Positions 50,180 through 63,315 of a stretch of 64,000 nucleotides of DNA are shown here, one piece after another. Numbering within the stretch: the first letter of the stretch is position 1; every line of letters begins with the position of its first letter. The DNA comes from Agelas oroides (lineage: Eukaryota > Porifera > Demospongiae > Agelasida > Agelasidae). A model generated the notes under the pieces. That model saw only the letters and a list, made by a program, of their open reading frames with translations, ran no database searches and had not been told where the DNA came from. The stretch spans positions 3,884,262 through 3,948,261 of the forward strand of contig OX422198.1 in assembly GCA_949130485.1 (NCBI GenBank). Direction: 5' to 3'. The translations under genes and the position numbers were made by a program.

Positions 50180-51804
50180 TTACAAGTGAGTTTCCTTCAT
50201 AGATTTTACGGTGCTTGTGTGGTAAGTCTTCCTCTCCTTCCCCGAGCTGAAGGATTTCTTCTGCTTTTTCTTGATCCAGCAGATGGTAGCAATGACCATT
50301 ACAATAGTCACTGTTATGAAGGCTGCACCAACTGCCACCCCAACTGCCAGAGCAGTGATACCACTGATATCTGTGGTATCAGTGGTGTCAGTAGTGTTAC
50401 TGGTATCAGTGATATCAATAGAGTTAGTGGTATCAGTGGTGTCAGTAGTGTTACTGGTATCAGTGATATCGGTAGAGTTAGTGGTGTCAGTGGTGTCAGT
50501 AGTGTTACTGGTATCAGTGGTATCAGTAGTGTTTGTGGTATCAGTGATAGCATTGGTATCAGTGGTGTCATTGGTGACAGTGGTGTTAGTGGTGTCAGTG
50601 GTATCAGTGGTGTTTGTGGTATTAGTAGTGTCAGTGGTGTTAGCGGTATCAGTGGTGTTAATGATATTAATGGTATTAGTGGTGTTAATGGTATCAGTGG
50701 TGTCACTGGTATCAATGGTGTTAGTCATATCAGTGGTGTCTGTGGTATCAGTGATGTTAGTGGTGTTAGTCATGTCAGTGTTATCAGTGGTATTAATGTC
50801 AGTGGTGCTAGTGGTAGCAATGGTGTTTGTGGTATCAGTGGTAGCAGTGGTGTTTGTGGTGTCAGTGATAGCAGTGGTGTTTGTGGTGTCAGTAGTAGCA
50901 ATGGTATCAGTGGTGTTTGTGGTATCAGTGGTAGCAGTGGTGTTTGTGGTGTCAGTAGTAGCAATGGTATCAGTGGTGTTTGTGGTATCAGTGGTAGCAG
51001 TGGTGTCAATGGTATCAGTGGTGTTAGTGGTGTTTGTGGTGTCAGTGGTGTTAGTGATATCAGTGGTGTCAGTAGTAGCAATGGTATCAGTGATGTTTGT
51101 GGTGTCAGTGGTAGCAGTGGTGTTTGTGGTGTCAGTGGTAGCAATGGTGTTTGTGGTATCAGTGGTAGCAGTGGTGTTTGTGGTGTCAGTGGTAGCAGTG
51201 GTGTTTGTGGTATCAGTGGTAGCAGTGGTGTTTGTGGTATCAGTGGTAGCAGTGGTGTTTGTGGTGTCAGTGGTAGCAGTGGTGTTTGTGGTATCAGTGG
51301 TAGCAGTGGTGTTTGTGGTGTCAGTGGTAGCAGTGGTGTTTGTTGTATCAGTGGTGTTTGTGGTATCAGTGGTAGCAATGGTATCAGTGGTGTTTGTGGT
51401 GTCAGTGGCAGCAGTGGTGTTTGTTGTATCAGTGGTAGCAGTGATGTTTGTGGTGTCAGTAGTAGCAATGGTATCAGTGATGTTTGTGGTGTCAGTGGTA
51501 GCAGTGATGTTTGTGGTATCAGTGGTGTTTGTGGTGTCAGTAGTAGCAATGGTATCAGTGATGTTTGTGGTGTCAGTGGTAGCAGTGATGTTTGTGGTAT
51601 CAGTGGTGTTTGTGGTGTCAGTGGTAGCAGTGGTGTTTGTGGTGTCAGTGGTAGCAGTGGTGTTTGTGGTGTCAGTGGTAGCAGTGGTGTTTGTGGTATC
51701 AGTGGTAACAGTGGTGTTTGTGGTATCAGTGATGTTTGTGGTGTTAGTGGTATCAGTGGTATCAGTGGTGTTAGTGCTGGTTGTCACCTCACTTCCAGTA
51801 ATCT
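50180..51804 (-). other. Terminal exon: Thr/Asn/Asp repeat stalk, transmembrane helix, basic tail
   Basis: The exon encodes about 541 residues. From about 51,777 to 50,357 it is a repeat of the type [17 protein letters not shown], built from 3n-base units. NTT is an N-glycosylation sequon, so the stalk offers dozens of N-sites beside hundreds of Thr O-sites. It is followed by a helix ([20 protein letters not shown]) that continues to CW, a stop-transfer KKKQKK and a tail of about 25 residues ending THL at TAA (50,180). No signalling motif is obvious in the tail. Confidence 0.9.
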
Positions 51805-60800: not shown

Positions 60801-63315
60801 GACTTCAACCCTTCCTTCACTGGAAGTGGATCCATCTACTAGTCGAACTTCACCATCAGAGCAGTTGGCAAATTCAGTGGTAATGGCTATATGTACAGAA
60901 TCACACAATTACCAGGATTGCACAAGCATTTTCACTTTTATATGCTGCTATAGCTAATGAGAGCAGTTTGTTTCTGGTACATGCACTCAACCCTACCACA
61001 AAAGCAAAAAAATTTACCTTTGCATTCTTTGGAGGGAGTATCGGCTAAATGTACATTACTGATTGTGATTAATCAATGCTGCTACCATGGGTTGGTACAA
61101 AACCTGGACTCTGGACTCTGGACTGGACTGTGGACTAGACTATACACTGAATTATGGACTCAATTTTGGACTCCATTTTAGACTGAAAAGCAGGCTGAGG
61201 TGGTGGATAGTGAGTGTATCTGCTCACTAGCAATGTGCTTGTACAGTTGTACAGCCAGTCTACCTTAGGCCTACAACCCTCTTCGCAGGGGATCCCCATT
61301 TGCGAATTATAGTGACAGCTGAAGTCACTGAGGCCCCCAGCTTGGCTGCTGCAAGGCTTGCTTCTACTCCCCATGAGTCCAGTGGTTCAGTGGTAAGAGC
61401 ATCTGACTAGTATTCACAAGGTCCCAGGTTCGACTGCCAGCTGGATCTCTGTGGATTTTCTTTCCCACAAACTATTACATTAGGCATTATAATGTTACTC
61501 CTATGAGTCCTTGCCAACGACTGTACGAGCAGAGCAATGGCTTAAACCAACCAGCCAGTCTTGCTGAAAGCTGCACAAATATCCACTCCTACTGTTATAC
61601 CAATCCCCTGCTCATTGGGCAATCCAGCATTTCATAGTCTTCTTTATATGGCAGAACTAGAATGCTATAGAGTCCAAAATCGAGTCCATAATCCAGTCCA
61701 TAGTCCAGTCCATGGTCCAGTCCAGAGTCCAGGTTTTGTACCTACCCTGCTACCATTGACATTTCCCTGTTCTGCTAACTCTTCTAGTGTGTGCTTGGCA
61801 ATGACTGCAGACAGCAAATACTGACCTTGACAGATCACCCCAGCATCATCATGAGATGCACAGTTGTATTCTTCCAGGTTGTTATGGCTGCAGTTCAAAA
61901 TACCAGCTTCACTGCCATTGCAGTGTAGGTCTGTTATTCCAATTGAGAGTTGACTTTCTGTGTAGCCACCAACAGCAGCAATTGCACCTGTGGTTTCAAA
62001 CAGTAGTTGCATTATAACTACTGGGTGCTATGGGGCTACAGTCGTATTGCAATTGGCATGCAGATTGCTTATGTACCAATCCTCCCCCCTACCCCTTTTC
62101 ACTGACATAATTATACAAAAGACTTAAAAGTTTCATTCACTCATGCATAAAGGGAATGCTTACTCATGTAAAAACTGTAGTGTATAATGCCATCTTGTGT
62201 CAAAGTGTGTGGTTGTTTTTACATCTGCACGGTTTCTGTTCTTTCTCACCAGAAGCAATAGATTTTGAGATTTACTCTAGTAATCCTGCTATAATGGTTT
62301 AATTACAAAAATCTATGTATCACAGGGTATGTAGATTCAGGTATATCTTGTATGTCTTTAAGCTACCATTCACTTGTGGGCAAACAACATACCATATGGT
62401 GAGTATCCAAGTTGCCTGCACAAAACACTGGCATCTTGACCATCCCAGAAGTCATCACACACTGTTGTCCAGGTAGATTCGATGCATAATTCTACACGTC
62501 CAGCAAATGCACTGCTTGGGCCAATTAATCGAACTTCTCCATCTGAACAGGAATCTACATGCACATGTGAATAATAACCATGAGTTGCAAAGTTTCAATT
62601 ATGCAAGTCATAAACTCATTGGTTACAGCAGGATCTCTAACCATTGCTGCAGTCTCCATACAATTACATATTACTAATTGCTGGACTACTAGCTAAAGCT
62701 ACATCTATGGCTATATACCCTCTATATGTGTACAGTCAAATGATGTGGTAGAGTTCCAATGTAACCACTGTGTTCAGACTCTTGCATACAGCTCTTTGTG
62801 ATTTATGTAGCTCATAAACACATGATCAAAGCATACATAGTTATTTTTCAAATCCAGTACTATACTTGAATACCCATCTAATACATGATCACAATAGGCT
62901 TTTTCATCTCTGGTTGCTTGGTGTATGTGTAGAAATAGAAAAGATGTCCAAGCATCAAAGCATCTTCACTGCAATTTGAACTTTGTGCTACTCGACCGAA
63001 ATCTATTCAGCCATAATGTGACTACGAGTGATGTTCTGTATTGGTATGAAAACCCCCAAGCCTGAAACATCCACAGCTGTCTGGTCCTGCTATATACCAT
63101 GCAGAAGTTGCATGCATACATTTTAAGAATGCTTTCTACCAGCTTACCAATGCACATCACTCCAGCATCAGATGCTTGGTTGCACAATGCTGTTGCAGTA
63201 ACAATACTGTAGCTACAGTCAAGAATTCTTGATGGTAAACCACGACAGTTGACATTTGTTATAAAGGATGGAGATGATCTTGTTCCAAAATAGCTTCCCA
63301 AATATGCAATGGCAC
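50180..63315 (-). CDS. Large SRCR-IPT-AMOP-VWD-EGF-mucin transmembrane receptor, 5' end outside window
   Basis: Twenty-seven exons on the minus strand join in frame for about 2,220 residues. Every intron is phase 1 except the one between the two AMOP exons (54,421/54,509), which is phase 2. Exons: 63148-63315, 62393-62554, 61826-61987, 60704-60886, 60405-60575, 60110-60262, 59505-59666, 58994-59173, 58746-58910, 58427-58588, 57554-57715, 57260-57439, 56823-56987, 56592-56753, 56335-56487, 55899-56078, 55672-55836, 55294-55551, 54509-55130, 54180-54421, 53942-53965, 53755-53790, 53147-53701, 52667-52924, 52412-52507, 51982-52095, 50180-51804. The two tiny exons at 53.8-53.9 kb are the least certain. 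The IPT-AMOP-VWD core is that of SUSD2, Mesh and MUC4-type surface proteins. The SRCR array and the long glycosylated stalk suggest adhesion or recognition. No signal peptide is in the window. Confidence 0.85.
50357..51777. repeat. Coding minisatellite (GGTGTTTGTGGTATCAGTGG-type units)
   Basis: About 1.4 kb is composed of 9-, 15- and 24-base units of GGTGT(T/C)(A/T)GTGGTATCAGT with GTAGCA insertions. Because all units are multiples of three and hold no stops, long open frames appear on both strands (for example the plus frames 50,177-51,814 and 50,271-51,890). Only the minus frame joins the upstream exons by a splice acceptor and ends in a membrane helix, so the others are shadows. Confidence 0.9.
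51982..52507 (-). other. Two EGF-like domains
   Basis: Exon 52412-52507 reads [19 protein letters not shown] then a final C, and exon 51982-52095 reads [13 protein letters not shown] then [12 protein letters not shown]. Each has six cysteines, one domain per phase-1 exon. The second lacks a clear calcium-binding signature. Confidence 0.85.
52667..55551 (-). other. IPT/TIG, AMOP and VWD block (SUSD2/Mesh/MUC4-like core)
   Basis: Exon 55294-55551 is an IPT/TIG domain ([17 protein letters not shown], then CAFGE and CVVPP). Exons 54509-55130 and 54180-54421 hold a linker and an AMOP domain: [59 protein letters not shown]. Exon 53147-53701 is a VWD domain with [20 protein letters not shown] at its start and a [14 protein letters not shown] stretch. 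Exon 52667-52924 is the segment that follows VWD in this group ([31 protein letters not shown]). The order IPT-AMOP-VWD-tail is as in Mesh and SUSD2. GDPH is intact, which in some family members is a cleavage site. Confidence 0.9.
61093..61742. mobile_element. Inverted-repeat element with AGTCC-rich ends and a tRNA-like SINE, in an SRCR intron
   Basis: The ends are inverted: GGTACAAAACCTGGACTCTG at left and its complement at right, followed on both sides by runs of CTGGACT/AGTCCA heptamers. In the middle (about 61,375-61,445) is a Pol III-like promoter: A box TGGTTCAGTGGTAAGAGC and B box GGTTCGACTGC. The tRNA-like part cannot fold cleanly, so it is a SINE head or tRNA relic, not a gene. It lies in the intron 60,887-61,825. 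Confidence 0.6.
62555..63147. other. Intron of the SRCR gene, no other feature seen
   Basis: AT-rich intron with no repeated element recognised and no additional SRCR half-exon in either frame. Confidence 0.6.

Follow-up and report, generated by a model that had tools for sequence, protein, structure and literature searches.

The gene described here lies on the minus strand of a 64,000-nucleotide stretch of the sponge Agelas oroides (assembly GCA_949130485.1, contig OX422198.1, positions 3,884,262 to 3,948,261; this whole stretch is called the window below), and its predicted protein places an array of scavenger receptor cysteine-rich (SRCR) domains ahead of a core known from MUC4, Mesh and SUSD2. 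MUC4 shares with it AMOP, VWD with a GDPH motif, C8-3_MUC4, EGF, one membrane helix and a Thr-rich mucin-like segment, and differs in that the Thr-rich segment here follows the EGF domains, beside the membrane. Where this gene has the SRCR array, MUC4 presumably has a NIDO domain preceded by a mucin domain. SUSD2 contains AMOP, and multi-SRCR proteins of the CD163/DMBT1 type, which share the tandem SRCR array, have to our knowledge no AMOP/VWD core. Papers are cited here and below for individual passages. NIDO, AMOP and VWD are given for MUC4 in PMC9080433, which also describes sea anemone mucin-4-like proteins extended N-terminally by CUB, ZP or FN3 domains; adding heads to a MUC4-type core is thus already known, and N-terminal additions to such a core are what these proteins have in common with the sponge gene, although the additions named there are not SRCR and NIDO is present. 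The rootworm orthologue of Mesh (DVSSJ2, of the smooth septate junction) is laid out as NIDO-TIG-AMOP-VWD-Sushi (PMC4964579); the sponge gene shares its TIG-AMOP-VWD order and single membrane pass but shows no visible NIDO and no Sushi, and has EGF domains, a stalk and the SRCR array instead. With SUSD2 it shares a VWD with GDPH and a transmembrane segment (PMC10880436, PMC6696261; the word AMOP occurs in the latter), and differs in having an SRCR array and EGF domains and no Sushi match.

In our reading the locus is a single gene whose product, a type I membrane receptor, has the SRCR array N-terminal to a MUC4/Mesh/SUSD2 core, is cleaved and is tied to PDZ partners; we put the probability of this reading at roughly 55%. 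The Pfam domain matches are far beyond chance. A preliminary description, made from the letters alone, had presented array, core, EGF domains, stalk, helix and tail as a single gene; this stands as a gene model, and we infer with high confidence that its exons are joined in one mRNA.

The gene model and its core

The coordinates first described hold: exon 1 opens at 63315, the last base of the stop codon is 50180, and SRCR passes to IPT at 55672/55551. Between these limits the rebuilt minus-strand model has 26 exons, where 27 had been counted, and 25 introns; one frame runs through all exons, as claimed, giving 2,208 codons without an internal stop, followed by the stop codon. Exonic and intronic bases amount to 6,629 and 6,507 respectively, with a median intron length of 177 nt (range 62-939). 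The chain was rebuilt by script from stop-to-stop frames, with splice sites picked by eye. All introns are phase 1 except that between exons 19 and 20, which is phase 2, and this regularity (24 of 25) is partly built in because phase-1 sites were sought around the SRCR exons; the open frame over all exons and the domain order are independent of that choice. On the joined protein Pfam returned SRCR, TIG, AMOP, VWD, C8-3_MUC4 and EGF in that order, and the families predicted beforehand (SRCR, TIG, AMOP, VWD, EGF) all scored above their cut-offs. The features are listed below; unless stated otherwise each rests on the exon chain and Pfam.

63148-63315, minus: exon 1, second half of SRCR1, its first half outside the window
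62393-62554, minus: exon 2, first half of SRCR2
61826-61987, minus: exon 3, second half of SRCR2
60704-60886, minus: exon 4, first half of SRCR3
60405-60575, minus: exon 5, second half of SRCR3
60110-60262, minus: exon 6, first half of SRCR4
59505-59666, minus: exon 7, second half of SRCR4
58994-59173, minus: exon 8, first half of SRCR5
58746-58910, minus: exon 9, second half of SRCR5
58427-58588, minus: exon 10, first half of SRCR6
57554-57715, minus: exon 11, second half of SRCR6
57260-57439, minus: exon 12, first half of SRCR7
56823-56987, minus: exon 13, second half of SRCR7
56592-56753, minus: exon 14, first half of SRCR8
56335-56487, minus: exon 15, second half of SRCR8
55899-56078, minus: exon 16, first half of SRCR9
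55672-55836, minus: exon 17, second half of SRCR9
55552-55671, minus: junction intron of 120 nt from SRCR array to core (donor AAG/GTTTGA; splice scoring)
55294-55551, minus: exon 18, IPT/TIG domain
54509-55130, minus: exon 19, segment with no Pfam match, then start of AMOP
54180-54421, minus: exon 20, remainder of AMOP
53942-53965, minus: exon 21, micro-exon of 24 nt, the least certain of the model (exon chain)
53147-53701, minus: exon 22, VWD with GDPH (visible-protein residue 1331) and without cysteine
52667-52924, minus: exon 23, MUC4-type C8-3 domain
52412-52507, minus: exon 24, EGF-like unit 1, under the Pfam cut-off (exon chain, Pfam, PDB alignment)
51982-52095, minus: exon 25, EGF-like unit 2
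50180-51804, minus: exon 26, Thr-rich stalk on a minisatellite, membrane helix, 30-residue tail ending ETHL, stop (exon chain, repeat and hydropathy analysis)

Within the core, TIG (PF01833; E 4.4e-6, 27 bits against a cut-off of 20.9) precedes AMOP (PF03782; E 1e-14, 55.3 bits against 25), which is followed by VWD (PF00094; E 4e-16, 60.2 bits against 22.9) with the GDPH motif inside it, and then by C8-3_MUC4 (PF23263; E 3.4e-14, 52.3 bits against 25), a domain overlooked in the preliminary description. Judged by its sequence the core is of the MUC4/Mesh/SUSD2 type, as had been proposed, and the C8-3_MUC4 match and GDPH motif strengthen this assignment. Alignments to PDB chains placed isthmin-1 over part of AMOP and FCGBP over VWD. 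EGF was matched at E 9.5e-7 in Pfam, where the second unit alone passes a cut-off; EGF models match the first unit under the cut-off, and Notch chains from PDB align over both, so that of the two EGF domains originally named one is secure by Pfam and the other is backed by these alignments. EGF after VWD together with a membrane helix, as in MUC4, is thus found here as one EGF above and one below cut-off and one helix by hydropathy. Pfam gave no Sushi match anywhere in the joined protein, and since the EGF domains occupy the place after VWD, we do not file the gene as Mesh or SUSD2. There was also no Pfam match to NIDO in the 945 residues preceding the core, the gene's 5' end being beyond the window.

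Between TIG and AMOP (54509-55294) a segment of ~155 residues, mostly in exon 19, has no Pfam match despite the conserved core around it, and an NCBIfam scan from TIG to the micro-exon likewise found no match. Structure prediction without relatives reached a mean pLDDT of 41.5 for exon 19 and 36.7 for the VWD exon, too low to use. Searches confirmed by tblastn found no relative of VWD among bacterial and archaeal contigs, nor of VWD with the start of C8-3 among putative viral contigs, results which are uninformative on animals.

The SRCR array and the stalk

The array matched SRCR (PF00530) at E 3.9e-195 over nine stretches, which are eight complete domains and half of one. The claim of at least nine SRCR domains therefore holds for the stretches, whereas only eight are complete and the ninth is a second half. 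Searching 63316-64000 with profiles of the gene's first-half exons found no SRCR first half, and that of SRCR1 must consequently lie beyond the window. Profiles from this gene, run against all open frames of at least 25 codons in the window (E up to 1), recovered only its own 17 SRCR exons, eight first halves and nine second halves. Each complete domain is encoded by two exons, in contrast to the sponge SRCR clusters of PMC10855680, in which three exons are reported for most SRCR domains. The closest solved structures are CD163/M130, PIT54, CD5-like and CD6.

Each of the eight complete domains carries eight cysteines, two more than is usual. One extra cysteine precedes the GEVRL motif and the other falls in RVEVC, and in the alignment view they do not sit at the two extra positions of CD163; the domains thus differ in two of eight cysteine positions from CD163 and do not fall into group B. 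In sponges a "group C" with seven cysteines has been described, and its authors' models leave the extra one out of any internal bond (PMC10855680, section 2.7). It is our guess that, if this extra cysteine corresponds to the one in RVEVC, it may pair with the N-terminal cysteine seen here, which would be outside a Pfam-bounded domain.

The domains also appear to alternate. Identity between whole domains of the same parity averaged 50.6%, against 41.7% between those of different parity, a difference matched in 2 of 70 label splits (the observed split and its mirror image). For first halves the values were 58.8 and 51.6% (2 of 70 splits as extreme), and for second halves including SRCR1 39.7 and 31.6% (3 of 126); it should be considered that the odd/even split was suggested by a prior look at the sequences. 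This pattern across 55672-63315 points to two types of domain, odd- and even-numbered, and to growth of the array by duplication of a two-domain, four-exon unit.

Ligand binding by the SRCR domains of SALSA/DMBT1 goes through cations held by acidic residues, which has been proposed for SRCR domains generally (PMC7043408). An acidic DD pair, placed by eye, is kept in SRCR2, 5, 6 and 9, half of the eight complete domains, and a cation-dependent head is plausible for some of the domains, not all.

Outside animals, a query of one SRCR domain had no tblastn-confirmed relative among bacterial and archaeal contigs, a search which is uninformative on animals. Among putative viral contigs one weak locus was seen (on the 60-kb contig IMGVR_UViG_3300010885_029854), with 40% identity over query residues 20-50, about 30 residues, at E 2e-4.

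At the other end of the protein the stalk comprises 481 residues, including 273 Thr, 72 Asp and 57 Asn, with 49 N-glycosylation sequons. A Thr/Asn stalk of 470 residues had been described; it is indeed Thr-rich, but is slightly longer and contains more Asp than Asn. The underlying minisatellite repeats with periods of 9, 27, 54 and 81 bases (24 bases in two short stretches), so that gain or loss of units keeps the frame. Hydropathy supports the single membrane helix and short tail first described (windows starting at 2146-2162, with two marginal windows at 996-997 inside TIG). The candidate cytoplasmic tail has 30 residues; inspection by eye showed no ITAM or other signalling motif in it, and its end, Glu-Thr-His-Leu, resembles what we take to be a class I PDZ ligand.

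Junction, proposed working and rival readings

Going by the sequence around the junction, fusion of array and core is its simplest reading. The intron keeps the frame and leaves 120 nt between the SRCR and core coding parts. Scored by leave-one-out matrices built on the splice sites of the model, its acceptor ranks in the 99th percentile of local AG sites and its donor, GTTTGA, in the 85th percentile of local GT sites (score 3.7). No AATAAA or ATTAAA occurs in the intron, the nearest on the minus strand being at 58249 and 54072. A separate core gene would need its own first exon, and 64000-55552 was searched for a signal-peptide-like start with a phase-1 donor at donor thresholds of 6.8, 4 and 2; the 0, 0 and 3 candidates are no excess over the 0, 3 and 3 of the opposite strand, used as control.

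In the receptor that we propose, the SRCR array on its long glycosylated Thr-rich stalk would act as a head for binding ligands on microbes, matrix or neighbouring cells, multivalent and at least partly dependent on cations, a role to which we give even odds. In the secretory pathway the chain would be cut between Asp and Pro of the VWD GDPH, yielding an N-terminal SRCR-TIG-AMOP subunit (143.8 kDa of visible peptide) and a membrane-anchored VWD-C8-3-EGF-stalk subunit (92.6 kDa) that would stay together. The class I PDZ-like ETHL tail would then tie the receptor to a cortical scaffold, although actual PDZ binding by the tail seems somewhat unlikely. Cleavage into two subunits is the likely outcome, as GDPH at residue 1331 predicts a head and an anchored part. 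VWD domains with GDPH are often cut between Asp and Pro, with MUC4, RGMB and FCGBP named (PMC10880436), and SUSD2 is cut at GDPH into halves that remain disulfide-linked and arrive at the surface as a pair (PMC6696261, abstract and section 2.5; the abstract suggests a serine protease and not self-cleavage). In the sponge protein VWD has no cysteine, but there are 12 in the stretch from the SRCR array to GDPH and 14 from GDPH to the stalk, making a disulfide link between the halves possible. We had considered a sheddable head without a disulfide hold, given the cysteine-free VWD, and dropped it in view of these flanking cysteines and the linked halves of SUSD2.

Several points weigh against the proposed receptor. 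The N-terminus lies beyond the window, with the first visible exon coding only for the second half of SRCR1; a signal peptide, the orientation and any further domains are thus out of view. Six acceptors (SRCR4a, 5a, 5b, 8a, 9a and VWD) are near the local median, in the 48th-60th percentile of AG sites, and single exon boundaries may shift accordingly. The junction donor is among the three weakest of 25, with only SRCR4b (2.9) and VWD (2.0) lower, and translation continued past SRCR9 into the intron would run into a stop 18 codons on, which ends at 55616; a weak donor with a stop behind it makes a soluble SRCR-only product possible. The full cation site (DD with a later Glu, by eye) is present in only two of the eight complete domains, SRCR5 and SRCR9, and the PDZ-like ending is short enough that it may occur by chance. 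It also should be considered that loss of SUSD2 from the surface without GDPH may reflect misfolding, not lost cleavage (PMC10880436).

The rival that survives best accepts the gene and disputes its role. The protein would then be a Mesh-like junction component or structural mucin and no microbe receptor, its SRCR array serving as an adhesive spacer in contacts between cells or with the matrix. We regard this as possible, though tentative. TIG-AMOP-VWD is arranged as in Mesh, and the mucin-like Thr stalk and a short tail of 30 residues without an ITAM-like motif, by eye, would suit such a protein. Against it, the visible part has neither Sushi nor NIDO, SALSA SRCR domains bind microbial and host ligands (PMC7043408), and of two sponges exposed to microbial signals Aplysina, unlike Dysidea, showed a rise of an SRCR gene (PMC6208332). 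These data are compatible with an adhesion role too, and none excludes it.

Both a secreted SRCR array and the membrane receptor could come from one locus, if the intron at 55,671-55,552 were retained or alternatively spliced. The weak donor and the in-frame stop behind it argue for this, as does a second frame-keeping GT 18 nt downstream (by eye), yet no poly(A) signal occurs before 54072, and we consider dual output unlikely. The same donor and stop could mark two neighbouring genes, a multi-SRCR gene ending near 55,616 and then a MUC4/Mesh-like gene with its own unseen first exon, and SRCR-only proteins make up 53.66% of 1,747 SRCR genes in a 29-species survey (PMC10855680). Just 120 nt would have to part the two, with no poly(A) signal there, no first-exon candidates above the control and a strong acceptor in fitting phase, which makes such a pair improbable. 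Least credible is an assembly chimera or pseudogene: although the rest of the window is repeat-rich, every exon is open and in phase across 2,208 codons, and a tblastn search with residues 1-1666 (E up to 1) gave no further match below position 50,000.

Surroundings, precedents and significance

Elsewhere in the window, a segmental duplication of ~5-6 kb links 1449-7252 with 38004-43062. The two copies have diverged, with pieces 67-96% identical among the matches listed, and mostly share order and orientation. A recent tandem duplication joins 10124-10801 and 10800-11479 (680 aligned bases, 99.4% identity). Just past the gene's 3' end, two open frames, 48543-48773 (plus) and 49005-49382 (minus), encode a nearly identical peptide from opposite strands, which suggests an inverted repeat or small mobile element; DNA from 48400-50160 had no match among plasmids. 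On the minus strand at 27247-29249, open frames resemble by eye an adhesion-type G protein-coupled receptor, and of three tested one gave a sub-threshold 7tm_2 match (E 0.011) and two gave none. Ten open frames elsewhere in the window, picked by eye, had no Pfam match above cut-off.

The preliminary description knew of no published SRCR-AMOP fusion, and none came to light: the open-access main texts of 5.39 million papers contained no co-mention of SRCR and AMOP (protein databases, which possibly list such an architecture, were outside the scope), nor of SRCR, AMOP and sponge, of SRCR, AMOP and VWD, or of AMOP with "scavenger receptor cysteine-rich". Six papers mention both AMOP and sponge; of these, PMC8260672 has AMOP only in a reference and PMC7853314 only in legends to figures on skeletal proteins of red coral. 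Sponges have hundreds of SRCR genes each, with mixed domain partners (PMC10855680, PMC6208332, PMC8242945), those of Halichondria, Aplysina and Dysidea being Sushi, FN3, EGF or kinases (PMC8242945, PMC6208332). In the main text of the 29-species survey AMOP, VWD and TIG do not appear outside the reference list, the full domain tables being in its supplements (PMC10855680), and passages of a cnidarian SRCR survey (PMC5119243) and of a sea cucumber genome paper (PMC13228809) contain no AMOP, VWD or NIDO. A ctenophore survey lists VWD in its SRCR figure legend (PMC11797021), which is legend text only. The parts are each known, and the combination of SRCR array and MUC4-like core did not turn up in the open-access texts searched; the architecture is unusual in that sense, while added heads and mixed SRCR partners have precedents.

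The preliminary description suggested a lineage-specific adhesion or self/non-self receptor, which this may be. A wider proposal would place the protein in an undescribed class of self-cleaving mucin receptors, with an SRCR recognition array on a GDPH-cleaved MUC4/Mesh core, recognition presented or released apart from the membrane stub, PDZ-type coupling to the epithelial cortex, an array grown by two-SRCR, four-exon duplication and a stalk whose length varies through a frame-preserving minisatellite; taken together we find this rather doubtful. The yield is one testable protein and no new system. MUC4, Mesh and SUSD2 share this core, and our reading, if true, would suggest that it is a self-cleaving carrier of general use, fitted with a different head in each lineage: NIDO for MUC4 and Mesh, CUB, ZP or FN3 in sea anemones and SRCR here. 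It would also tie epithelial barrier molecules to pattern recognition, placing recognition of microbes or self directly on a junction- or mucin-type molecule, possibly in an early animal lineage.

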